Assembly (NCBI GenBank): GCA_035606695.1
Contig: DATNEW010000019.1
Coordinates: 124,001-188,000 of the forward strand
Length of the DNA: 64,000 bases
Direction: 5' to 3'
DNA from: Gemmatimonadaceae bacterium
GTDB lineage: Bacteria > Gemmatimonadota > Gemmatimonadetes > Gemmatimonadales > Gemmatimonadaceae
Shown: piece after piece, positions 15,715-27,614 of the stretch
How positions within the stretch are numbered: the first letter of the stretch is position 1
Layout: each line of letters starts with the position of its first letter
Translations under genes and position numbers: made by a program
Notes under the pieces: model-generated
Databases searched by the model: none
Seen by the model: only the letters and a program-made list of their open reading frames with translations
Told to the model about the DNA's origin: nothing

Positions 15715-15727
15715 ACGCGGATTACGG

Positions 15728-18022
15728 TCAGAACATGGCTTCGAGCGACACGTCAACGCGGAACTGCTTTCGCGGATAAATGCCGCGCGCCACGTCGAGA
15801 CGCAGCAAACCGTCGGCGAACGACAGCCCCGCGCCAACGCCGCTCATCGGCCGCACCTTCTGCAGGATCTTCGTTCGGTCACCGACCCACCCAAGATCGC
15901 CGAAGACGGTCGGCCGCACGCCAACGGTGTTCTGGCCGATCTCGAAGCGCGTGAGCCAGTACGCGTCACCGGCTTGTGTCGTGTCGGGGCTTTGGCCGCG
16001 AACCGTTTGTAATCCGCCCAGGAACCAGTTCCGCTGCGGCGGGAGGCTGCCGACCGAGCTGCCGCCCGATATGGTGAGCGACCCCGCGATGGGTCCGACG
16101 CCCTTCGAACCGGTGAGATCGACCGCACCTCGGCCATACGTCGATTGGCCCGCGGCTGCTTCCATTCTGAGATCTGTGAACAACCGAAAAGCGGCGGGAT
16201 CGAGACCGTGCTGGTTCGCGACGTCGATGCCGACACCGGAGTACCATCCGCGCCGCGCGAGGACATTCGCGGGAAACGCACCTCCGCTGAAGGCGAACGA
16301 CGTGTGCGCCGCAGCCGTGCGTTGCTGCTCGGAGAAGGCGCGCCACTCCACGCGCGTGCCTCCTCCAAACTCGGCGGCTCGGTCACCCGAGACTTCGATT
16401 CCCGTTGCGCGATAGTAGAAACCTTCGTCGCGTGCGAACAGCAGCGCCGATACCGAGCTGCTGAAGCTGAGCGGGTGTCCCCAATCATTCGCGGAGACGA
16501 GACGATTGTAGACGCGGGCGCCGATCGTCTCTTCGACATTCGAGCGTGCCGCGGCAAGCTCGAAGTTCGGCTCACGGTCGGCCGAACCGATTCGCGCAAG
16601 TGCGGTGCCCGCGTATCCCCCGCCGAAATCCTGTTCGACCGATCCACCGAGCGACAGACCCTCGATGCGGTTGTATCGCATCAGCGATGGGCCGTACGCA
16701 AAAACGGCGCGTGGAAGCCGGGCGCCGGGACGTCCCAACAACAACGGCCCCTGAGCGCTGAGTGCCAGCGCCTCTCCCTTCAAGGCCTCGAGCTCGTCCG
16801 CGCCGAACAATTTCTCGTTCGCATCGTAGATCGACGCGGGCAGATCCGGCGAATTCTCGAGCTTGGAAAGGTCACACGGAATTCGCATGGCCGTGACCAG
16901 TCGCGCATCGTACAGCGACGAGGTCACCACGCGTGTGTCGGACGTGTCGCACGCGCGATGATAATCCCGCGTTCGAAGACCGCGCCGAACCGAGTCGCGC
17001 CATTTCGCGCGTTCCTCGGGGTTGACGAGATCGCGAATGTGAGGGCGCGCCGGTTCCGCCGCGATCGACGGCAAGCTGTCCGCGCCATTCACGCTGGAAT
17101 ACGTGAAACGCTCTTCCAACTTGAACGGTACGCGCATGAATCCGACGTGCGCGCTGCCTTCTGCGATCCGCAACCTGGGAAGCCAGAAGCGCCCGTCGTG
17201 CAGCCCGTATTCGATCACGACAGCCGCCACCTCGGCCTTCATGGGTGTGATCATCGATCTCACCCATCCGGGGAAGTCGTCCATCGAAGTGGAGTCGGCG
17301 TCGCGCGCCGCGACCCATAGGTCGATCGGGGCCGCAAGCCGATACGCGGCGCGCACCAGTTGCCCCGAGCTCGCGTCCAACCACAATGAACCCGTCGCGA
17401 GATTCCACTTCGGCTCGCGCGGCCGAATCTCGAGCTCGACGAGCCGGATCGTCGCGACGTTCGGCAGCTCGAGCGTGATCGAGTCGCCCGTCGCATAGGT
17501 GTAATACGCCTCTGCGCCTTCGGCGAGAGGATGAATCAACCCTCGCCTGTCGATCGTGGAGCGTGCGATACCACCCCCGATCCAGAGCGGCTCGTTGCCT
17601 GGAAAGTACGGGATCGATGCGTACAGGTCCGGGTCGCTCATTCGGCTGTGAACCTTGCCGTCGCCGTGCAATGCAGTCAGCGGAATGACCGTTCTCGATG
17701 CCGTGGCGTCGATCCATGCGCCAATGCCTTGCTGCCAGCGAACGCGAGCCGCGCTCTCGTGGCGAAAGAGCAGTCTATCGCGACCAATGCTTCTGAATCC
17801 GAGTCCCGCCGAGATGCGCTGATACGACATTGCGTCGTACGCGGTCAGCGTGGAATCCTCCGTCATGCGCGCCCGGCGAGCGCGAACCAGAATGCTCCGC
17901 GCGGTCGGATCAGTGAATGCTGACTCGAGGATATCCGCGGTCAGCTTCGTCGGCTCGCCCTGCTGAACCGGCGGCCCTGGCGAGCCTTGAAACACCAGCG
18001 CGATGCCGAGAAGGACAAGCAC
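15728..18022 (-). CDS. Predicted outer-membrane beta-barrel protein, function unknown
   Basis: 764 residues from GTG 18022, opening with a short hydrophobic segment (LVLLGIALVFQG) that looks like a signal peptide. Arg-rich codons continue upstream, so the true start could be slightly different. The first half has no clear motif. The C-terminal third resembles the Omp85/BamA-type barrel: alternating Gly/aromatic strands, FLGGLQTVRGQ, LFADLRMEA-like strands, and a final strand RVDVSLEAMF ending in Phe, as sorted by the BAM machinery. It is the last gene of the minus-strand RiPP-like operon, 77 bp downstream of the helical-repeat gene. Whether it functions with that cluster or simply follows it is not known. 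Confidence 0.7.
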   Translation of the reverse strand: MLVLLGIALVFQGSPGPPVQQGEPTKLTADILESAFTDPTARSILVRARRARMTEDSTLTAYDAMSYQRISAGLGFRSIGRDRLLFRHESAARVRWQQGIGAWIDATASRTVIPLTALHGDGKVHSRMSDPDLYASIPYFPGNEPLWIGGGIARSTIDRRGLIHPLAEGAEAYYTYATGDSITLELPNVATIRLVELEIRPREPKWNLATGSLWLDASSGQLVRAAYRLAAPIDLWVAARDADSTSMDDFPGWVRSMITPMKAEVAAVVIEYGLHDGRFWLPRLRIAEGSAHVGFMRVPFKLEERFTYSSVNGADSLPSIAAEPARPHIRDLVNPEERAKWRDSVRRGLRTRDYHRACDTSDTRVVTSSLYDARLVTAMRIPCDLSKLENSPDLPASIYDANEKLFGADELEALKGEALALSAQGPLLLGRPGARLPRAVFAYGPSLMRYNRIEGLSLGGSVEQDFGGGYAGTALARIGSADREPNFELAAARSNVEETIGARVYNRLVSANDWGHPLSFSSSVSALLFARDEGFYYRATGIEVSGDRAAEFGGGTRVEWRAFSEQQRTAAAHTSFAFSGGAFPANVLARRGWYSGVGIDVANQHGLDPAAFRLFTDLRMEAAAGQSTYGRGAVDLTGSKGVGPIAGSLTISGGSSVGSLPPQRNWFLGGLQTVRGQSPDTTQAGDAYWLTRFEIGQNTVGVRPTVFGDLGWVGDRTKILQKVRPMSGVGAGLSFADGLLRLDVARGIYPRKQFRVDVSLEAMF

Positions 18023-18099
18023 GGTAATCCCTCGACGAAAGACGGCCCATCGTTCCGATACGATCCGACGGCGGCCCGGGTTTCAGTGCGCGGCCGGCT

Positions 18100-19275
18100 T
18101 CACGAACTGCAAATCTCCGCAACGAGCGCTTCCGCCTCGAGCACGGCGTCCGAAGCCGCAACGACATCGCCCGATCGATATTGCCGATACATCGTCTCCT
18201 CTTCAAGGCGTTGCCGCGTCTCCGTCCAGCGCGCGACGTCCGTCGAGTCGACGGTCGAGAGCAGCCGAGCGCTTTCGATGCACAGCGGCTCGTCTCCCGC
18301 CGTCGATGCACCGTCGAACACGACACGGGCAAGCGCGGAAGCCGCCTCCGGCCAGCACAGCACGGCGGCCACTGTGGCAGCTCGCTGGAGAATTCGGAGG
18401 TTTGACAGATCTCTCACGGCTTCGAGCGAAACACGCGGAACGACGCTGGCGATTGGCGTGAGCACGGCACGGCTCGACGACATGTTGTCACCGACTGCCA
18501 GGGTTTCGGCGAGTCGCAGGCGAAACACGAGCATCGGCCATCCACTCACTGTGGCGGCAGCCGATCTCGCCAGGTGGACCGCCTCGTCGGCGCGACCGAG
18601 TTCGGCGTGCGCGACGATCGCCGCCTCGCGTAGAAACGGCTGGAACTCTCGCCCGCAGGTCGGCGAAAGGCGCTCGACGAATTCCAACATTTCGCCGGCT
18701 TGATGATTTCGTAACAGCGCCTGCAGTGAATCGAGCACGTAGATGTTGTTCGCCATCTGCCGCAGCGTGACTGGCGCGTCGGCTGTCACGGCGTCGTCGA
18801 TCTCGATGGAATGTCCGAGGACGACGAGGGCGGAGCACGGGGACGTCGACGACAAACCGGCGTAGCGCGACAGCGCGCCCGCCCAGTTTCCCTCGAGCGC
18901 ATCGAGTCGGCCGATGTTCACCCACGGTTGAATCGCGAGCGAGCGGATCGCGCTGTCGCCGTGGACGTCGCCAAAGCGAATTAGCCATTCGGCCTCGAGC
19001 TCGCACAGTCGGCGAGACACGTCCGCCGCCCCGCGAGATATCGAAATCAGTGAGACCATGTTCGCGGCGGACGCGATTGCACGCGCGTACTCCCGCGCGG
19101 ACATTCGCGACTTGTCGCATTCGCGTAAAGTGCGCGCCAGTCGCTGCGCCCAGACATGAAGCGGTTCTCGCGCGATCCTCGCGGCGGGAAGCAGGAGCGT
19201 GGACGCAACGGATGCCTTGTGTGTTCTCGCACCGCTCACGTCGAGCGAAAGCGGCGCCGTGTCAGTGGCCAGCAT
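18100..19275 (-). CDS. Hypothetical helical-repeat (TPR-like) protein in RiPP-type operon
   Basis: 391 residues, rich in Ala, Leu and Arg. Successive amphipathic helices (for example ALSRYAGLSS, NNIYVLDSLQALLRNHQ, REAAIVAHAELGRADEAVHLARSA) suggest a TPR-like solenoid, a scaffold for protein contacts. No signal peptide, catalytic motif or P-loop is seen. The start overlaps the upstream PqqD-like gene by 14 bp, so it is probably co-translated with it. I do not recognise the family. Confidence 0.6.
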   Translation of the reverse strand: MLATDTAPLSLDVSGARTHKASVASTLLLPAARIAREPLHVWAQRLARTLRECDKSRMSAREYARAIASAANMVSLISISRGAADVSRRLCELEAEWLIRFGDVHGDSAIRSLAIQPWVNIGRLDALEGNWAGALSRYAGLSSTSPCSALVVLGHSIEIDDAVTADAPVTLRQMANNIYVLDSLQALLRNHQAGEMLEFVERLSPTCGREFQPFLREAAIVAHAELGRADEAVHLARSAAATVSGWPMLVFRLRLAETLAVGDNMSSSRAVLTPIASVVPRVSLEAVRDLSNLRILQRAATVAAVLCWPEAASALARVVFDGASTAGDEPLCIESARLLSTVDSTDVARWTETRQRLEEETMYRQYRSGDVVAASDAVLEAEALVAEICSS

Positions 19276-19660
19276 GCTCCTCCCCCTTTTTCGGTGCGGG
19301 CCAGCGGCTCGGTCGCATTGCCGGAGCGTCCGCTTTCGCGCGCGCCTCGGACCAGTCGCGCAGCACCGCTGAATGCGGCACGAGCAGGCCCTTGTTCATG
19401 AAAGACGCAATGCACGTCCGCGCGCCGTTTCGCCTGCCCGCGTCTTCCGGCAGCACATCTCCGATGCGCGTCGGCCGCCGGAACCGAAGCCACAACTCGA
19501 ATGCCGGCCGTGAGACCTTGAGCGCGAGTCCCGTCGCCGGGACGTACAGGGACGCGGCGTTTCGCTCGATTGAATCGACGAGCACGGTTGGCGACGCGAG
19601 ACACACCGCGTCGTCGTCGAGCGCCGGTACGCTCTCGGCACGATTCGACTCGTGGCTCAT
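19262..19660 (-). CDS. PqqD-like protein (RiPP recognition element candidate)
   Basis: 132 residues. The middle follows the PqqD winged-helix pattern: VDSIERNAASLYVPATGLALKV (beta strands), SRPAFELWLRFRRPTRIGDVL (helix-turn), then RTCIASFMNKGLLVPH (helix ending in GLL). PqqD domains bind leader peptides and present them to maturases. It overlaps the DUF6065-like gene by 4 bp and the helical-repeat gene by 14 bp. The assignment rests on pattern alone, without an alignment. Confidence 0.55.
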   Translation of the reverse strand: MSHESNRAESVPALDDDAVCLASPTVLVDSIERNAASLYVPATGLALKVSRPAFELWLRFRRPTRIGDVLPEDAGRRNGARTCIASFMNKGLLVPHSAVLRDWSEARAKADAPAMRPSRWPAPKKGEEHAGH

Positions 19661-20469
19661 GCTTCGACCGGGGTTTTCGCCGCGGCGTCTCGCTCGAGAA
19701 CCGCCGTCGGCGGCAGTTCCGCGGGGACGACAACCGTGCGATCGACGAATGGTCTGACACTGAGTCTCGTACGATGCCCAAGACTGATGTCGTCACCAGT
19801 CGACGTCGTGCCGCGATTGTAGAATCGCTGCCAGCCTTCGGCGTGTTCCTGCGAGTCGCGCTCGCGCAATCGCTCGTTGAAGTGTTCCCGGCTGTTCGCC
19901 CACGTGTGAAAGCGCTCCATCAGCGCTCGATCGTCGGAGATGTCCTGAATCTCCGGCTCGACACGCTCGACGAGACCCTTCGGAATTGGGAAAATCTGAC
20001 AGATTGGCTCGCCGCGTTCGAAGCGTATCGGGACGCCGACACGCGTGAAGATCCAGTTCATCGTGAACGTGAACGGGAGCCAGTTGGTCTCGACGATTCC
20101 CGTCAACGGTGACACGCCGTCCTTGCAGCAGTTCGCCGGCCCACTCACATGGAGGTCGTACTCCTCTTCCGTTCGAAACAGGAATCCGGGATGGAACGTC
20201 AGAATGCCTTCACCAAAGTGATTCGACACGATCGCATCCGGATCGGCGTCGATGCCGACGATCTGCGTCGACTCCCGCGCGCGCCCTCCCGTCCAGACCG
20301 CCTCGAACGTGCATCCGCTGAGCAACTCCCATCCATATGAATTCGCGACCGTCAGCGGCAGGCAGCGATACGCGAACCGATTGGCGCTTTCGTCCATCCA
20401 CTGGCGGCGGACACTCGCCGGCCGCATCTCAAGCGCCCTTTTTGTAATCCGATATGCAGTCAGTCGCAT
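19657..20469 (-). CDS. DUF6065-like protein in RiPP-type operon
   Basis: 270 residues. The N-terminal half resembles the uncharacterised DUF6065 family: RPASVRRQWMDESANRFAYR, CLPLTVANSYGWELL, then a Trp/Phe-rich core (LPFTFTMNWIFTRVGVPIRFERGEPICQIFPIPKGL) that looks like a small-molecule or jelly-roll fold. The tail is charged and probably disordered. No signal peptide. It overlaps the acyltransferase-like gene by 10 bp and the PqqD-like gene by 4 bp. Its function is unknown; operon position suggests a role in peptide modification or hydroxylation-like chemistry, but no catalytic motif is certain. Confidence 0.6.
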   Translation of the reverse strand: MRLTAYRITKRALEMRPASVRRQWMDESANRFAYRCLPLTVANSYGWELLSGCTFEAVWTGGRARESTQIVGIDADPDAIVSNHFGEGILTFHPGFLFRTEEEYDLHVSGPANCCKDGVSPLTGIVETNWLPFTFTMNWIFTRVGVPIRFERGEPICQIFPIPKGLVERVEPEIQDISDDRALMERFHTWANSREHFNERLRERDSQEHAEGWQRFYNRGTTSTGDDISLGHRTRLSVRPFVDRTVVVPAELPPTAVLERDAAAKTPVEA

Positions 20470-21758
20470 GCGTGCTCTCCCACGAGCTCGGGGGCTTCAG
20501 TTCGTTCATTCGCGGTCAGAAGACTGCGGGCGGCCAATGCCGCGAGCGTCTCCGTGAGCGCCGCGCGCTCGTCCGCCGGCTGCCGGTCGATCCATTCGGC
20601 ATCGACACCGGTCGTCATGAGCGCGCGCGCGAGTCGGCCGCGATGTGTCGGCAATGAAATCGTGGACATCGTCCTGACGTCGGTCCACACCACGCCCGAC
20701 GCAACGCTCGTCTGAACGACGCACCGTCGATCGGCGAGCAGCGCGCCGTTCGCGTCGAGCTGGCCGGTGATCCAGGCCTGTGCGGCAGCGGCGTCGAGAG
20801 GCGCCGTCACTTCCATCGGCAGTCGCAGACGGTTGAACTGACGCGCGCCTTCCCACTGGCTCGGGTACCGTTCGATCTCGCGCTCGAGCGCACGAAGGAT
20901 CACGCGCATGCTCTCCGCGACGAACGCTTCGCCGCGGCCAGTCATGGGAACCACCTCCGGCGTCGGTGCCGGCGTGCCCTCGCCTGGTCCCGTCGGCACA
21001 TCGCCTTCATTGGGCACGGACGGAATGACAACGGCAAGCGGGGCATCGCACATCGCCGCCAGGCGAACGGCTCCCGTGCGCACGCGAATGGGGCACCCGA
21101 ACAATTCGACATCGATCGACCCGCGACCGGTTCCGTCGACCCGCCCGAGTGCTCCGTCCACGAACAGCAGGAGGATTTCGTTTCGCTCCAGCGCGGCCTT
21201 CATGCGCCGCGGCGCACCTGGTTGCTCCAGGTCCAGCGGCGTCACCAGGCGCAATGCGTCGTTCTCGTGGACGCTGGCGAACCCGGTTGCCGCGCCGGCG
21301 CGATCCATCGCCGTCGTGATCGGAAAACCAAGTTGAGCCAAGTCCGATGAGAGATGCCGGTATGCTCCAAAGTGAAAGCTGCACAGGACCAGGCCGCGGC
21401 CCGGCGCAAGCAAGCGCTCGAGTCGATCGCGATCCCAGTCGCGATACATGAGGCGTGGCGGCTCGCCGGCGGCCGCGGCGCGACGCATGCGACCGGCGTC
21501 GGCGCGCCACTGCCACCCCGTCATGAGCCACCGGCGCATCGCCTGGACGGCGCGAAGGTGAATAGCCTGCCGCGGCACCCGGTCGCGATATACAGCGAGG
21601 AACGCGGTCTCGAATAGACTCAGGCCGAGCCCTTCCAACACGGGCTCGCTCGCCATCGACACCGCGGAGTATGCGTCCTGCTCGGCGGCATCCGCGTTCG
21701 CGAGCACCTCTGCGAGCGCGGCGACGGTGATTTCCTTGTGCGTGGCGACGGGCATCAT
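20460..21758 (-). CDS. Divergent LpxL/HtrB-like acyltransferase in RiPP-type operon
   Basis: 432 residues from the first of two adjacent ATGs (21758). Residues 120-320 follow the lysophospholipid/lipid A acyltransferase pattern: GRGLVLCSFHFGAYRH, a LFVDGALG segment, and a C-terminal part with LAAMCDAPLAVVIP. In the LpxL family the catalytic block is H-x4-E; here H129 is kept but the acidic partner is Arg134. The last 90 residues, ending TETLAALAARSLL, look like another PqqD-type winged helix. No strong N-terminal membrane anchor. It could acylate the peptide or a lipid, or be a non-catalytic relative. Confidence 0.6.
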   Translation of the reverse strand: MMPVATHKEITVAALAEVLANADAAEQDAYSAVSMASEPVLEGLGLSLFETAFLAVYRDRVPRQAIHLRAVQAMRRWLMTGWQWRADAGRMRRAAAAGEPPRLMYRDWDRDRLERLLAPGRGLVLCSFHFGAYRHLSSDLAQLGFPITTAMDRAGAATGFASVHENDALRLVTPLDLEQPGAPRRMKAALERNEILLLFVDGALGRVDGTGRGSIDVELFGCPIRVRTGAVRLAAMCDAPLAVVIPSVPNEGDVPTGPGEGTPAPTPEVVPMTGRGEAFVAESMRVILRALEREIERYPSQWEGARQFNRLRLPMEVTAPLDAAAAQAWITGQLDANGALLADRRCVVQTSVASGVVWTDVRTMSTISLPTHRGRLARALMTTGVDAEWIDRQPADERAALTETLAALAARSLLTANERTEAPELVGEHACD

Positions 21759-21783
21759 CTGCTGTCTTGTCCCCCGCGAGAGG

Positions 21784-23148
21784 TCACGAACTGAGCGACG
21801 CGGTGATCGTGTCCGTATGGTCGGAGCCCAGTGCGATACGTTCATGCTCGATCGGACGCTCGTCAGTGCGCGGAGCACGAAGGCCGGCGACGACGCGTCG
21901 CGCTCCAACCAAGAGGGCTCGTCCGCCTCGATAGAAGAACAGACAGATGCCAACGACGGCCATGCTGCGCCATGTGAGATCGACCACCGCCAGGAAGATG
22001 TGGAGCGCGCCGGCCCGATGTGCGACGGCGAGCCACAATCGGCCGAGCGTTTCGGGATACGTCGCGAACAGCGTTGCACCGAACCGGCTCAGCACCGCAA
22101 ACCACATCCACGCGAAGAAGCCGACGCTGGCGACGGCATAGGCCGTGAGTGCGATCGTCGCGCGGCGATCCAGCCCGAGTCCAATGGCCGCATCCCCGCG
22201 GCGATCCGGCCGGCGGATCATCACGACCGCGCGCGCCATGAGCGCCCCCGCCTGTTGCCGCAGGTTGGCGATGCCGAGGGAGTCGCTCACCAGCCAGTAC
22301 CCGTCGAGTCGAAAGAACGGGCTCACGTAACTGGCGATGGCCAGATCGCTCAGCAAGATGCAGTAGAGCAACAACCGCCATCCCGTCTCGTGATACCACA
22401 CCGTGATGGCGCAGAGATAGAGAAGTTGGAAATACACGCCGGCGACGTCGAGGACCACGCGCTGGCGTCGTGTGAGACGCCACGCTTCGGAGAGGTCGGT
22501 GTACAGCACCATGAAATACCAGTACACACCCCAGCCAATCGTGATCTTTCGGCAACCGTAGCGAACGCCTGCCGTGGCGTGTCCCAGTTCATGAATGAGA
22601 GAACCGAAACTGACGAGGCCCATCACGATCAGGGCGTCACCGCCGGTCAGCGGCTTGCTGGAGAGCGTCGCGTGTGGCCGGACGCCGAAGAAGAACCACG
22701 CCTGCACGGCGATCGTGGCAACGAGTGCCGGGAGGACGGCTTCACGGCGGAACAGCACGCCGAGTCCGCGGCCGATCACGTTCACGACCGATGACGGAAT
22801 GAGCGCGACGCGAAGGCCGAGGTAGGAGGAGCGCGTTGCCCGCTTGGTCTGGACCGGGCGATCGCCGACGAGCACTCCGCGCGCAACGAGAAAGCCGTCG
22901 ACGAGGCGCTCGAGACGCTCGCTCGTGTGCGACGGATGTGTTGCACAGTATGACGACACGAGGTCGGCGGTGCTCGTTCGGCCGTCGAACGTCGAGGCGA
23001 ATTCCCAGATCGTGCGCGGTACGGCGAAGCGCGAGGTGCGGCGGTCGGCCGCGGGCACTTCACACAACACCATTGGCTCGAGCGACGCGCTGTCGAATGG
23101 CTCGACACGCATGCTCGGGTTCAGCGATAGCGGCTGCGCGGGGCTCAT
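21784..23148 (-). CDS. M50-family membrane metalloprotease with PqqD-like N-terminus
   Basis: 454 residues. Residues 35-95 match a PqqD-like winged helix (SRFAVPRTIWEFASTFDGRT ... VDGFLVARGVLV). About seven hydrophobic segments follow. The zinc site is H186-E187-x2-H190 in SLIHELGHATAG, and the second metal motif is LDGYWLVSD with Asp282, as in site-2-protease relatives. Similar M50 proteins accompany radical SAM peptide maturases (for example YydH), where they are thought to release or export the mature peptide. It starts 72 bp after the precursor gene. Confidence 0.85.
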   Translation of the reverse strand: MSPAQPLSLNPSMRVEPFDSASLEPMVLCEVPAADRRTSRFAVPRTIWEFASTFDGRTSTADLVSSYCATHPSHTSERLERLVDGFLVARGVLVGDRPVQTKRATRSSYLGLRVALIPSSVVNVIGRGLGVLFRREAVLPALVATIAVQAWFFFGVRPHATLSSKPLTGGDALIVMGLVSFGSLIHELGHATAGVRYGCRKITIGWGVYWYFMVLYTDLSEAWRLTRRQRVVLDVAGVYFQLLYLCAITVWYHETGWRLLLYCILLSDLAIASYVSPFFRLDGYWLVSDSLGIANLRQQAGALMARAVVMIRRPDRRGDAAIGLGLDRRATIALTAYAVASVGFFAWMWFAVLSRFGATLFATYPETLGRLWLAVAHRAGALHIFLAVVDLTWRSMAVVGICLFFYRGGRALLVGARRVVAGLRAPRTDERPIEHERIALGSDHTDTITASLSS

Positions 23149-23172
23149 GGGTGCATCGTCTCAGTGGCGCAA

Positions 23173-23206
23173 GACAGCAGGTCCGCCGGAAGGCGAACCT
23201 GCTGTC
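23173..23206 (-). promoter_or_regulatory. Hairpin directly downstream of the precursor gene
   Basis: A perfect 10-bp stem (GACAGCAGGT at 23173-23182, ACCTGCTGTC at 23197-23206) with an inner GCC/GGC stem and a GGAA loop. It lies in the 72-bp gap between the precursor stop and the protease start. No U-run follows on the minus strand. A 3' hairpin here could stabilise or partly terminate the precursor mRNA so that more peptide than enzyme is made. Confidence 0.65.
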
Positions 23207-23220
23207 GGCCGACTGCTCGG

Positions 23221-23385
23221 TCAGTCGCCGCCCCCGGTCTTGACGGGCGGTGGGCACGTGCCATCGCAGTTGGTGTTCGGTCCGCACTGGTAATCGCAGC
23301 ACATTGCGAATTCCAGGCGCTCTTCGAGCTCGAGAATTGAGAACTCCTCGAGGACCTCGGGTTGCGATGCGAGTTTCTCCGTCAT
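23221..23385 (-). CDS. Cysteine-rich RiPP precursor peptide (candidate)
   Basis: 54-residue peptide starting at ATG 23385, which has a strong GGAGGG Shine-Dalgarno six bases upstream; the frame is open 21 codons further but without a better start. Acidic leader MTEKLASQPEVLEEFSILEL then EERLEFAM; C-terminal core with C29, C30, C34, C40, C44, two Asp-Gly-rich turns and a PPP-KTGGGD tail. The size, the leader/core contrast, and the position between a radical SAM/SPASM gene and an M50 protease gene identify it as the likely substrate. Thioether (sactipeptide or ranthipeptide-like) cross-links are possible but not proven. The core family is not one I recognise. Confidence 0.8.
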   Translation of the reverse strand: MTEKLASQPEVLEEFSILELEERLEFAMCCDYQCGPNTNCDGTCPPPVKTGGGD

Positions 23386-23466
23386 ACACCCTCCGGAACA
23401 ATGTGGGACATCGCCACCGTAGCGGCGGCAGTCGCCGCCACGCCTCATCCCCGAGACGGGGCGAGC

Positions 23467-25002
23467 TTAACCGGCCACTCCAAGCGCCGCTGCCGTCGGC
23501 TCTGGCGAGTCGGCACTCGATGGCGCGCGCTCGTCTGCCGATCGCGGCAGCGCGTGCGGCGCCGCGTGCGGCACCGCCACGGCGCGAGCCGTCGGCAACG
23601 TCAGCTCGAGCGTCTCCAGCAATTCGGACTTGAGCGCCGATTTGGTCGACGGACACGGCCGCCGCCCATCGTTGATCCGGATCATCGGACACGCGAGCCC
23701 CTGACACACCGGCACGAGGTAACAGCTCGAGCAGACCTTGTCATGCTGCCATGCCGGGTCCACCCACATGGCGAGATTGTCGACATTGAGAATGAATTCA
23801 CCTTCGGGCGTCACGCGTCCGACGATGTTGTTCGGTTGCTTGTCCAACGCCACCGTGCACTTCATCAACTTGCCGTCGGCGCCAATCAGGAAGTTGAACG
23901 GCCGCGCGGCGTAACAGACTTTTCGACCGGGCCGGTTTTCATCGCGCAATCCGTGACCGAGATTCAGCCCCTGTTCCCGCGCCGATCGGCGGATGTTCAC
24001 TTGAACGTGGCGCATCTCTTCGGTGCCGCAGACGTTGAGCGCCTCGTCGTTCGGACCACCCCACTTGCCGACGGCGTGCAACGCGATCTCGAACCGTTCG
24101 TCCGACGCGAACGTCGTCGCGATCAGATCGATGTACTGGTCCAACGATTTGCTGTTGTTCGCGTCGAAATTCGTGCGCAGAATGATTCGGAACTCGTCCG
24201 GCCGCCGATGCAGCGCGACGAGATTCTCGAAGATCTGCTCGAACGTCCCGGAACCGTCGCGCGCGACGCGGCTGTGGTTGTGATGCTCCGGCAGTCCGTC
24301 GAGCGTGATCTGGAAATGCCGAATGTCCCACTCGAACAGCTTCGACGCGCGCTCGGGCGTCAGCAAATACCCGTTCGTCGTCATGTGCGAGCGATAGTGC
24401 AGCCCGTACCGCCGCACCGCGTCGGCGAAGTACGGTCCGAGATCCTCGATCGCTTCGAACCCGTACAACGGCTCACCGCCGAACCACGAGATCGAGAGTT
24501 GATTCAAGTCCGGCAGCCGCTTCTCCACGTACCGCTTGATGCCCTCGCGCACCGACGGCAACATCGTTCCGCGCGCGAAATCCTCATAACAGTATACACA
24601 TCGGAAGTTGCAATCCTCCGACGCCATGAGGATCAACTCCAGCGTGTCCATGCGATAGTGCTGCTGCCCGAACACCAGTTGAAATCGTTTCGATTCGTCG
24701 ACGCTGCGCTCGACGATGAATCCCCGCTCACGCAGATAGTCGCCGAACGGCGATAGCTCGCCCTTGAACCCCACGCGGCTGAGCAAACGTTCGGCGATGG
24801 GTCGCTGCTGTGGCGGAAACACACTGATCGCACCCGACATCGTGTTCCAGACGATCAGTCGTCCCTCTTCATCCGACGCACGCGCGTTGAATCGCGACGC
24901 GATCCATTCTTCCGTGGGCGCGCGCCGGAGCTGAATCAATTCGCTCCCATGCGCGGATACACCTGCATCCAGTGGCGACGACTCGAGCAGCCCTGAGGAC
25001 AT
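23467..25002 (-). CDS. Radical SAM/SPASM peptide maturase
   Basis: 511 residues from ATG 25002 (TTG 25035 is an alternative). The N-terminal 115 residues contain a winged-helix-like stretch (LIVWNTMSGAISVFPPQQRP ... YLRERGFIVE) that may recognise the leader. The radical SAM cluster motif is C131-x3-C135-x2-C138 (CNFRCVYC), followed by WFGGEPL and TTNGYLL. SPASM cysteines for auxiliary clusters: C363, C382, C424, C427, C433, C438 and C450. The Pro/Ala-rich tail of about 60 residues is probably disordered. First gene of the minus-strand operon; the precursor follows 81 bp downstream. Confidence 0.9.
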   Translation of the reverse strand: MSSGLLESSPLDAGVSAHGSELIQLRRAPTEEWIASRFNARASDEEGRLIVWNTMSGAISVFPPQQRPIAERLLSRVGFKGELSPFGDYLRERGFIVERSVDESKRFQLVFGQQHYRMDTLELILMASEDCNFRCVYCYEDFARGTMLPSVREGIKRYVEKRLPDLNQLSISWFGGEPLYGFEAIEDLGPYFADAVRRYGLHYRSHMTTNGYLLTPERASKLFEWDIRHFQITLDGLPEHHNHSRVARDGSGTFEQIFENLVALHRRPDEFRIILRTNFDANNSKSLDQYIDLIATTFASDERFEIALHAVGKWGGPNDEALNVCGTEEMRHVQVNIRRSAREQGLNLGHGLRDENRPGRKVCYAARPFNFLIGADGKLMKCTVALDKQPNNIVGRVTPEGEFILNVDNLAMWVDPAWQHDKVCSSCYLVPVCQGLACPMIRINDGRRPCPSTKSALKSELLETLELTLPTARAVAVPHAAPHALPRSADERAPSSADSPEPTAAALGVAG

Positions 25003-25116
25003 TGAGTGCCTCGGCAAAAGCCGGTTCCGGGCCAAACAACAGGGTGACCATTCGACGACGCTCGAGCGAGCGTCGCCGCCATGCGGTATACCAATTTGCT
25101 CATTAGAGCGTTCGCG

Positions 25117-25144
25117 ATACTACAACAATCTTTCCTGTTGTCAA
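25117..25144 (-). promoter_or_regulatory. Candidate promoter of the RiPP-like operon
   Basis: On the minus strand, TTGACA (25144-25139) and TAGTAT (25122-25117) are separated by 16 bp, a near-consensus housekeeping promoter. It would start transcription about 100 nt before the maturase ATG. On the plus strand TTGTCA (25138-25143) and TACGCT (25161-25166), 17 bp apart, form a weaker divergent promoter for the permease; the two -35 boxes overlap. The rest of the 202-bp gap is AT-richer than its surroundings and contains a GACGCTC/GAGCGTC hairpin near 25057. Confidence 0.55.
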
Positions 25145-25204
25145 TCACGCGATTCGGCATTACGCTAGCGCGAAGCCAATTTCCTTCCCGCGAGGACACA
25201 CCGC

Positions 25205-27610
25205 ATGGCATCGCTCTTCTTGGAAACGCGGACGTCGCTTCGCCATCTCGGCCGCCATCCGATCGTTGCCCTCACTATACTCGTTTCGTTCGCGTTGGGA
25301 ATTACCGGAACGACCACCGTCGCAGGTTTTGTGGACGAAACGTTGTATCGACCATTTCCATATCACGCGCCATCCGAGCTCGTTGCCATCTTCTCGGCGA
25401 AACATGCGCAGCCTGGCGTGCGCGCCGGACTCTCGTATCCCGATTATAAGGATTTACATGATCGCGTTCGCTCGCTCACCGACCTGGCGGCGTATCAAAC
25501 CGCCACGCTCAGCTTCGGCGGTGGGGATCCCAAACGAATTGAAGGCGAACGTGTCTCACCGAATCTCTGGCACACGCTCGGCGTTCAGCCCATCGTCGGA
25601 TCCACCGCGGCGTGGGATGTCGCATCACCCAGCGGTTCCACGCTCGTGCTCAGTTATGTCTTGTGGCAAACACAGTTCGGGGGACGCGCCGACATCATCG
25701 GCGCCGCCGTGGATGTCGATGGCCGGCAACACCGCGTCATCGCCATCATGCCGCCGAGTGTGCGATTTCCCGAGGTCGCGCAGTTCTGGGTGCCGCTCGA
25801 GCGCGACGCGGCGCACGCCTCGCGAAGCCAACGCGACGTCCGCGTGATCGGACGCCTCGCGGCGCGCGCCACTCTATCGAGCGCGAATGCCGAAGTCACG
25901 GCGATCGTCAAGACGCTCGCCGCCGCGCACACGGCCGCCGACCAAGGGTGGGACGGCGCGGTGATGCCATTCCGTCAAGCAATCGTCGGCCAAGGCGTCA
26001 AGCCGATTCTACTTCTCGTACAAACGATTGCCGCGCTCGTGACACTGCTCGCCGCGATCAATGTCGCCGCACTGCTCCTGGCGTACGGCGCAACGCGGCG
26101 GTCCGAGTTCGCGGTCCGTCTGGCGCTTGGCGCATCACGCCAGCGTATCGCGCGCCTCATCATCGTCGAAAGTCTTGGGCTGTCGCTCGTCGGCGCGTTG
26201 ATCGCGGTGGCGCTTTCGCAGCTCGCGCTCCGCGAGATTCGCGACGCCATTCCGATCGAGCTCCCCGCGTGGATGCCGCTGCACATGGACGTCCGCATCG
26301 AAATCTGGACGCTGTTCGTCGCGGCCATCGCCGGCATCATGAGCGGAATGCTCCCGTCGTCGCAGCTGTCGGCCACCGAACCGGCGGACGCCCTTCGTCA
26401 GGGCGGCGCCGGAACTACAATGACGCGCGCCACGCGCCGCATGCGACGCGCGTTGACGATGGCGCAGCTCGGGCTCTCGGTCATTTTGCTAACGCTTGGC
26501 ATCTTACTCATGAAGAGCTACCGGAACATCATCGCGACCTCGCCGGGGTTCGAACCGGACGGCGTGCTGACGACTCAGCTCGCGTTCCCCGCAGGGGCGC
26601 CCGCCGATCCCGCGGCGCGCGGCGCATTCGTCGATCGGCTTCTGACGAACGCGCACGAAATGGCCGGCGTGGATCGCGCGGCCGTCGTGAACTTCCTGCC
26701 GCTGAGCGGAAACAGCGCGAGCGTCACGGTTGCGGGAGAGGCGCAGCAGCCAACCGCGCGCGCGCGCGTCGTCGATCAGCGCGTGATCACGCCCGAATAC
26801 TTCGCGGCGCTCGACATTCCGCTCGTCTCCGGTCGTGCGTTCGAGACCGGCGACGATGCGGGCCATCCGAGAGTTGTGATCATCGACCAGAAGCTCGCGA
26901 AGCTGTTGTGGCCGACGGGGTCAGCCCTCGGGCGACGCCTGCATATCGGAGCCGGCGACGATTCCACAAATTGGGCAGCTGTCGTCGGCGTCGTTGCCAT
27001 GGTCAGACAGTGGACGCTCGCCGAACCCGGCACGCCAACCTTATATCAGCCGTTCGCGCAGCGCGCTGTCTCGTCGTTCGAGCTCGTGATTCGTACTCGG
27101 GGCGATCCGCTGCTCATGCGAACGTCCGTCAAACAGCTCGTGCGTCGCCTGGATGCGAATATGCCAATGACCGCGCCCGTTCGATTGTCGGACGTCGTGG
27201 AGCGCTCGGCGTGGGTGCCCAAGCTAACCGGAGCGCTCATCGTCGCGTTGGCGGCCGTCGCGGCCATTCTCGCCATCGTCGGAGTCTATGGTATGTCGGC
27301 TGAAGGCGCGAAGGAGCGTTTGCCCGAGCTTGCGATCCGCGCGGCGATCGGCGCGCGTCCACTCGATCTCATCTGGTTGAACGTCCGCGATTCGGCGGGC
27401 GTCATCGCGGTCGGCGTCGTTGCGGGCGCGATCGGAACGCTGCTTCTCGCGCCGGCGCTTCGGCGAGCGGTCTTTGGTGTGTCCCCAGCCGACCCGTGGG
27501 TGTTGCTCAGCAGCGCCGCACTGTTGTCGCTCGTCGCCATCGTCGCCTGCGTGCTCCCAGCCCGAAGCGCGGCACGCGTCGATCCATTGTTGACGCTGCG
27601 ACGTAGTTAG
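25205..27610 (+). CDS. ADOP-type ABC transporter permease (MacB/FtsX superfamily)
   Basis: 801 residues with two FtsX modules: a hydrophobic segment near residue 20 (PIVALTILVSFALGITGTTTVAG), a periplasmic MacB-like domain (LSYPDYKDLHDRVRSLTDLA ... RIEGERVSPNLWHTLGVQPI), three helices around 265-400 with EFAVRLALGASRQRIARLI, a second helix-periplasmic domain-three helix unit, and EFAIRxAIGA-type LPELAIRAAIGARPLDLI at the end. This is the Acidobacterial Duplicated Orphan Permease layout; no ATPase gene is adjacent. It is divergent from the RiPP-like operon and may export its product, but such permeases are also common elsewhere. Confidence 0.88.
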   Translation: MASLFLETRTSLRHLGRHPIVALTILVSFALGITGTTTVAGFVDETLYRPFPYHAPSELVAIFSAKHAQPGVRAGLSYPDYKDLHDRVRSLTDLAAYQTATLSFGGGDPKRIEGERVSPNLWHTLGVQPIVGSTAAWDVASPSGSTLVLSYVLWQTQFGGRADIIGAAVDVDGRQHRVIAIMPPSVRFPEVAQFWVPLERDAAHASRSQRDVRVIGRLAARATLSSANAEVTAIVKTLAAAHTAADQGWDGAVMPFRQAIVGQGVKPILLLVQTIAALVTLLAAINVAALLLAYGATRRSEFAVRLALGASRQRIARLIIVESLGLSLVGALIAVALSQLALREIRDAIPIELPAWMPLHMDVRIEIWTLFVAAIAGIMSGMLPSSQLSATEPADALRQGGAGTTMTRATRRMRRALTMAQLGLSVILLTLGILLMKSYRNIIATSPGFEPDGVLTTQLAFPAGAPADPAARGAFVDRLLTNAHEMAGVDRAAVVNFLPLSGNSASVTVAGEAQQPTARARVVDQRVITPEYFAALDIPLVSGRAFETGDDAGHPRVVIIDQKLAKLLWPTGSALGRRLHIGAGDDSTNWAAVVGVVAMVRQWTLAEPGTPTLYQPFAQRAVSSFELVIRTRGDPLLMRTSVKQLVRRLDANMPMTAPVRLSDVVERSAWVPKLTGALIVALAAVAAILAIVGVYGMSAEGAKERLPELAIRAAIGARPLDLIWLNVRDSAGVIAVGVVAGAIGTLLLAPALRRAVFGVSPADPWVLLSSAALLSLVAIVACVLPARSAARVDPLLTLRRS

Positions 27611-27614
27611 CGAA

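Follow-up and report, generated by a model that had tools for sequence, protein, structure and literature searches.

A block of nine genes between ksgA and rex in a Gemmatimonadaceae bacterium (contig DATNEW010000019.1, positions 124,001 to 188,000; this whole stretch of 64,000 nucleotides is called the window, and coordinates without a locus number refer to it) probably directs the synthesis of a lipidated, radical-SAM-modified peptide, belonging to the ribosomally synthesized and post-translationally modified peptides (RiPPs). An original prediction, made from the letters of the DNA alone, had placed a RiPP cluster at 18100-27610, and gene calls, motifs and the neighbourhoods of homologues confirmed this cluster with all of its named genes on the strands given. 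The range holds as a block, except that its left end omitted an Omp85-like gene that also lies inside (Table 1). Four genes form a core set that recurs in other genomes, encoding a radical SAM/SPASM maturase, an acyltransferase that carries a predicted RiPP recognition element (RRE), a Cys-rich precursor peptide and an M50-type protease. We consider it an evenly balanced question whether the acyltransferase (of the LPLAT superfamily) and the RRE-bearing M50 protease, with ELEDRLE-leader precursors as their substrates, define a RiPP class in which a fold of the lipid A and PIM acyltransferase type has been co-opted for the acylation of a ribosomal peptide by way of an acid-free, Arg-containing active site, and in which the radical SAM crosslink, arginase/cupin enzymes and DUF6065 are optional modules. 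The core set fits no known peptide family that we found, and a named class would need a product.

The precursor peptide and its homologues

The precursor is not a chance open reading frame (ORF): its coding score is positive, a GGAGGG Shine-Dalgarno box closely precedes the ATG, and homologues sharing a conserved leader occupy the corresponding neighbourhood in other genomes. Its leader is EEFSILELEERLEFA, and leader homologues were present at L009, L014, L017, L019, L020, L023, L024, L131, L132, L134 and L135. The motif (E/D)E(F/M)...E(L/F)(E/D).R, which can also be written EF..(E/I)LE(E/D)RLE, is common to all precursors, comprising that of the window and 13 others; their length across the clusters is 41-54 aa, and close pairs showed only a few differences when compared for purifying selection. 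None of the precursors tested matched an NCBIfam model. The short precursor with a conserved leader and a variable core, adjoined by modifying enzymes, is the arrangement expected of a RiPP cluster.

The cores contain two to five Cys, the exception being a Cys-free paralogue in the broken L131 cluster. The pattern C-(N/D)-x-x-C occurs as CDYQC and CDGTC in the window and as CDDNC, CNIYC, CNGSC and CNGRC elsewhere; it was found in all maturase-linked main precursors except that of L024, and was absent from the maturase-less loci L132 and L135. It arises in 1-10% of composition-preserving shuffles of each core, and the related sequences are not independent. We regard this pattern as a probable target of the maturase. 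At L131 (11207-14480, from the family of Luteibacter) a transposase-like ORF splits the maturase and a second precursor paralogue lacks any Cys, as in a decaying cluster.

A predicted acyltransferase with an RRE domain

The lipid A-type acyltransferase of the original prediction has a predicted PatA/LpxM fold, in agreement with that description, and additionally has a C-terminal RRE domain that the prediction had not seen. Its sequence matches were weak (Lip_A_acyltrans, E 0.029; PIM acyltransferase, E 2e-5; PatA structures, E 2e-5). In the AlphaFold2 model (predicted local distance difference test (pLDDT) score 78.8; predicted template modelling (pTM) score 0.81), residues 44-315 aligned with PatA and LpxM with Z scores of 20-21 and a root-mean-square deviation of 2.9-5.5 over 237-275 residues, placing this region in their fold. 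Residues 338-419 matched the RRE domains of TbiB1 (Z 8.4), the structure of which was solved with its leader peptide, and PbtF (Z 7.0), and the C-terminal part also matched a true PqqD protein (E 1e-4, 56% probability). Leader-binding RRE domains, as expected in RiPP clusters, are therefore predicted both at the C-terminus of the acyltransferase and in the stand-alone protein described below.

Because a leader-binding RRE domain is fused to a PatA/LpxM-like domain, this modelled LPLAT-RRE enzyme very probably works on the peptide, and lipidation of the peptide by it is rather likely. As acyl acceptor, Cys or the core N-terminus is likelier than Lys or ornithine, because the cores of L009, L132 and L135 have neither Lys nor Arg; these three cores also led us to reject acylation on Lys or ornithine in every member. 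A plasmid collection contained no homologue of the acyltransferase, and a sample of Acidobacteriota gave weak matches only, with no cassette on the short stretches around them. In the open-access literature we found no description of the LPLAT-RRE domain fusion together with such a cluster, and nothing relevant on lipid-A-type acyltransferases in RiPPs.

Recurrence of the core set

Ten further loci with a maturase, from three phyla (Gemmatimonadota, Myxococcota and Pseudomonadota), carry the core set, a count that takes in L008, which is seen in part (maturase and acyltransferase up to near the contig end), and L131 with its split maturase. The order maturase-acyltransferase-precursor-M50 was observed at L009 and L014 (Gemmatimonadota), L017 and L134 (Myxococcota), L019, L020 and L022 (Luteibacter, Fulvimonas) and L023 (Sphingomonadales), with maturases 45-57% identical to that of the window; at L024 maturase, precursor and M50 run up to the contig end. 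As L019/L022 and L017/L134 are close pairs, these loci are not all independent. L132, L133 and L135 have the acyltransferase and M50 genes with no maturase within 19 kb; two of them, L132 and L135, also encode a precursor carrying the same leader. Of the two combinations, the acyltransferase-M50 pair is the more constant.

Genes that might supply an acyl group adjoin two of the cassettes, as L009 has genes for an acyl carrier protein (ACP), an AMP-ligase and two acyl-CoA dehydrogenases, and L014 has those for an ACP and a ketosynthase. In the Myxococcus, Luteibacter, Fulvimonas and sphingomonad cousins (L017, L019, L020, L022, L023 and L134), where the core reads RCNGRC, genes for PF00491 arginases and Cupin_8/JmjC proteins come after the cassette; one arginase of each pair has an extra N-terminal domain. 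The acyl-supply genes of the former and the arginase/cupin hydroxylases of the latter point to a lipidated RiPP.

The block is a single unit between ksgA and rex

In all five of the other same-genus genomes, ksgA directly abuts rex (hit-to-hit gap of 4-65 nt, with nothing between), and the gene order flanking the pair is identical on both sides. Because of this adjacency, the nine genes of the block (Table 1) were either gained here or lost by the other five genomes as one unit, and this clean boundary is better evidence for their unity than strand and spacing. The block's GC content of 0.645 lies just below the 0.646-0.667 of equal-length stretches outside it, so near that it is not a clear foreign mark, and no direct repeats of at least 10 nt were found near the block ends.

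Table 1. Features of the ksgA-rex block in window coordinates.
Feature	Coordinates	Strand	Remarks
Whole block	15715-27614		Nine genes, between ksgA (ends 15714) and rex (ends 27615)
Omp85/ShlB-like outer-membrane protein	15728..18022	-	PF03865, 22.8 bits
TPR-like helical protein, 391 aa	18100..19275	-	Homologues in L009, L036
Stand-alone RRE-like protein, 132 aa	19262..19660	-	Without Pfam match
DUF6065 protein, predicted dUTPase-like fold, accessory	19657..20469	-	PF19541
LPLAT (LpxM/PatA-like) acyltransferase with C-terminal RRE domain (predicted), 432 aa	20460..21758	-	AlphaFold2 model
M50-type intramembrane metalloprotease with RRE-like N-terminal domain	21784..23148	-	HELGH
Precursor peptide, 54 aa, MTEKLASQPEVLEEFSILELEERLEFAMCCDYQCGPNTNCDGTCPPPVKTGGGD	23221..23385	-	Coding score, GGAGGG, leader homologues
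Radical SAM/SPASM peptide maturase, 511 aa	23467..25002	-	PF04055; ATG at 25002
Promoter-like site TTGACA-16-TAGTAT	25117..25144	-	Divergent gap upstream of maturase
ADOP family duplicated permease, divergent	25205..27610	+	TIGR03434

Genes were called with a codon-model caller, longest-ORF calling being misleading in these GC-rich genomes. The minus-strand genes are transcribed in the order maturase, precursor, M50, acyltransferase, DUF6065, 132-aa protein, TPR-like, Omp85-like; the first four are spaced by 81, 72 and 25 nt, and the three junctions from the acyltransferase through DUF6065 and the 132-aa protein to the TPR-like gene overlap by 10, 4 and 14 nt. The short gaps and overlaps that had been described between 25002 and 18100 are thus real, although seven genes lie there rather than six. 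The promoter-like site upstream of the maturase matches at 10 of 12 positions; such sites are no commoner than in shuffled sequences, and its reading as a promoter is only suggestive.

The maturase and its relatives

The maturase matches PF04055 with 55.8 bits and is of the SPASM type, with invariant cysteines and a conserved M..SPLD N-terminus. This bore out the original prediction, as did the Cys-rich precursor, the DUF6065 protein and the divergent ADOP permease. The best NCBIfam relative of the maturase was TIGR04463, to which its score of 202.2 bits does not assign it (cut-off 525), and the best solved relative by sequence was PDB 5wgg, which we take to be CteB. A SPASM maturase adjoining a Cys-rich core is the combination expected of sactipeptides and ranthipeptides. 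Its nearest kin (45-57% identity) are from Gemmatimonadota, Myxococcota, Acidobacteriota and Pseudomonadota. Only 4 other genomes among the 298 searched in the phylum had kin with an E value of 1e-20 or lower, and a wider scan, in which a single genome represented each bacterial and archaeal species, yielded 80 loci.

The original prediction had offered the absence of a precursor beside close maturase homologues as grounds for abandoning the cluster. That test was largely passed, as a precursor was present at most of them, with L010 and L011 as exceptions. These two (L010, 8956-10434; L011, 746-2212) have no recognisable precursor, acyltransferase or M50 alongside, while their other neighbours are conserved; they are possibly orphan maturases acting in trans, and genome G242 also carries the L008 cassette. 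Maturases of the same clade at L015, L016, L018, L025 and L034 adjoin double-glycine-leader precursors and large transporter-like genes; they form one tree group, and a branch with support 89/88 separates the acyltransferase/M50-linked maturases.

Several other maturase loci were observed. The loci L016, L018 and L025 comprise a pair of maturase clusters, about 20 kb apart on a single Holophagae contig and with VSGG leaders, and a nearly identical cluster in Acanthopleuribacter pedis. In Nonomuraea dietziae (L031, 8966-9857), three short Cys-containing peptides that nearly repeat one another (AEQYMDNCDCM and similar) are encoded directly upstream of a maturase 37% identical. The genome of the window itself has a second divergent radical SAM gene elsewhere (G000, contig C39, 153126-153539; open frame 588 aa).

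The M50 protease, transport and accessory proteins

The M50 protein has an HELGH motif and a second motif, SPFFRLDGYW, of the form (N/S)P...DGYW. Its N-terminal domain matches the extra, RRE-like domain of the cousin arginases (91.6% probability). It scored 23.7 bits against the YydH/LiaK model (cut-off 225) and 89.6 bits against the daptide protease model (cut-off 300), and being far below both cut-offs it belongs to neither the daptide nor the LiaK family. These scores, with no Yyd-type maturase among the best matches listed, spoke against the resemblance to Yyd-type systems that had originally been proposed. In the daptides, the leader is cut off by MpaP, an intramembrane peptidase that depends on an RRE (PMC10036551), and by analogy with MpaP we assign leader removal to the M50 protein as a putative role.

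The ADOP permease is a full-length member of its family (TIGR03434, 671.7 bits; cut-off 622.3), and similar permeases adjoin the cassette in L009, L014, L019, L020 and L022, making it a candidate exporter or immunity protein. The Omp85-like family had homologues in 52 of the 59 genomes searched and has 3 copies in its own genome; the gene is probably a lineage paralogue, and as such paralogues are widespread, its presence in the block says little on the product. Apart from viperin models, to which the radical SAM match was generic, a search for anti-phage defence found nothing.

The DUF6065 protein scored 313.3 bits against PF19541 (gathering cut-off 26.6), and its model (pLDDT 63.6) matched dUTPase with Z 9.7-10.8 over residues 1-180. 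The idea that it is a 2-oxoglutarate hydroxylase was not supported, its own model being dUTPase-like. The 132-aa protein aligned with the N-terminal domain of the cousin arginases (hhalign probability 96.5%, E 8e-10, 77 columns, 25% identity), and from this alignment both may be read as RRE domains. Homologues of the TPR-like protein were found near the cassette in L009 (30% identity) and in Streptomyces L036, where a DUF6065 gene lies beside a maturase and a TPR-like protein. The DUF6065, stand-alone RRE and TPR-like genes are absent from most homologous core-set loci, and we regard these three proteins as accessory. The original suggestion that all genes serve one product therefore stands in so far as they form one inserted unit and the core four recur together, and not with respect to co-conservation of these three.

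DUF6065 genes elsewhere are mostly alone, and no paper that we found in the open-access literature names the family. Three settings were nevertheless recorded. In Streptomyces (L143, 8039-14808), what looks like an undescribed RiPP cluster combines DUF6065 with a ThcOx-type oxidase, a JmjC_2 protein and a peptide of 61 aa that ends in DDVSGASLPIPRILN. In a genome of the sphingomonad order (L145, 6874-8445) it is fused to a Cupin_8 (JmjC-like) domain, which suggests that it works with an oxygenase. On a Gemmatimonadota contig (L117, 516-2202 and 7755-8999), it adjoins Transglut_core3 and PqqD genes (lasso B2/B1-like) and an asparagine synthase, possibly a lasso cluster. A link between DUF6065 and oxygenase-modified peptides is a guess.

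Proposed pathway and alternative explanations

Building on the unit, the precursor, the recurring core set and the predicted folds obtained computationally, we infer a pathway in which several enzymes would recognise the leader of the 54-aa precursor through their RRE domains. The SPASM maturase would probably crosslink the C-(N/D)-x-x-C core by thioethers, and the LPLAT-RRE enzyme, with acyl-ACP or acyl-CoA as its donor, would then attach a fatty acyl group to the peptide. The acceptor would most likely be a Cys thiol or an amine, the latter possibly that of the core N-terminus. Leader removal by the M50 protease would take place at the membrane, and export or self-protection might fall to the ADOP permease, perhaps assisted by the Omp85-like protein. 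The DUF6065, stand-alone RRE and TPR-like proteins may add an accessory step.

Several observations weigh against this proposal. The HxGxxR motif is invariant in all 14 acyltransferase sequences, so that each has Arg in place of the acid of the superfamily H(X4)D/E dyad (His129 and Arg134 in the enzyme of the window). This Arg falls at the Asp of PatA (HSGNWD), the alignment with which ends one residue before, and, by motif correspondence, at the position of E127 of LpxM; with the acid replaced, acyl transfer may follow another course or may not occur. Additionally, the gene order in the window differs from that of the cousins, with the acyltransferase after M50; ACP and ligase or ketosynthase genes lie beside only two cassettes and are absent from the window; and the cores have no acceptor side chain in common other than Cys.

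The replacement of the acid in 14 of 14 sequences, at a residue kept as Asp in PatA and named as catalytic in the title of the LpxM E127A entry, would also fit a protein that serves as a non-catalytic leader-binding scaffold or chaperone in a maturase-made RiPP, having kept the fold and lost acyl transfer with the acid. We consider this unlikely, as homologues about 25% identical all keep the His, the RV motif and the DG..G loop, in line with a working active site, two of the cassettes have acyl-supply genes alongside, and the protein is retained without a maturase in L132, L133 and L135.

We give still less weight to the explanation that the acyltransferase, DUF6065, TPR-like and Omp85-like proteins are passengers, and that the maturase, precursor, M50 and ADOP proteins make an ordinary sactipeptide or ranthipeptide. 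The rarity of DUF6065 and the TPR-like gene at homologous loci and the Omp85 paralogues throughout the family agree with it, but the acyltransferase carries an RRE and recurs with M50 even where the maturase is missing, and the overlaps and clean ksgA-rex boundary tie the remaining genes together. Finally, a Yyd-type epipeptide or daptide system, to both of which the M50-type protease is related, is very improbable. It is largely refuted by the protease scores, and against it are also the absence of daptide partner genes, the abundance of Cys in the core and the kinship of the maturase with Cys-peptide enzymes.

Comparison with known systems

Few RiPPs are lipidated. In the group of these that is described best, the selidamides (phaeornamide, kamptornamide), a GNAT enzyme serves as acyltransferase; phaeornamide is made with an arginase, an Fe(II)/alpha-ketoglutarate (alpha-KG) hydroxylase and a GNAT acyltransferase (PMC9505594). 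The system proposed here would share with them a fatty acyl group on a RiPP, and in its Luteibacter and Myxococcus cousins the acyltransferase is accompanied by an arginase and a hydroxylase of the Fe(II)/alpha-KG type. Unlike the selidamides, it has an LPLAT fused to an RRE in place of a GNAT, no member of the GNAT family being found in the block by Pfam or NCBIfam; the cousin arginase is PF00491 and not PF12640; and the leader is not NHLP, there is no lanthionine synthetase, and the window has neither arginase nor hydroxylase. If our proposal is correct, a second, unrelated leader-reading fold would provide a new route to ribosomal lipopeptides, and the cousins that combine arginase, hydroxylase and acyltransferase would, by analogy, represent a clear convergence on selidamide logic with unrelated acyltransferase and arginase families. 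With precursors of 41-54 aa and one or two enzymes, these clusters give small test cases, and Luteibacter jiangsuensis and Fulvimonas soli are available in culture.

The enteropeptin enzyme KgrD is a PF00491 arginase that acts next to a Cys-derived thiomorpholine (PMC12703449). The cousin cores likewise have Arg next to Cys (RCNGRC) beside a PF00491 arginase, and this resemblance may be taken as a lead; by contrast, that paper mentions neither an acyltransferase nor an M50 protein, and the window core has no Arg. The M50 protein with its RRE-like domain parallels MpaP of the daptides, although it falls below the family cut-off and the block lacks the daptide partner enzymes. The SPASM maturase beside a short Cys-rich peptide recalls the TIGR04463 Cys-rich-peptide maturases and the CteB/PapB-type thioether enzymes, from which it is set apart by its score (202 bits against 525), its leader and its partners. 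PatA and LpxM share the predicted fold of acyltransferase residues 44-315 (Z 21), to which an RRE domain has here been added and in which the dyad acid has become Arg.

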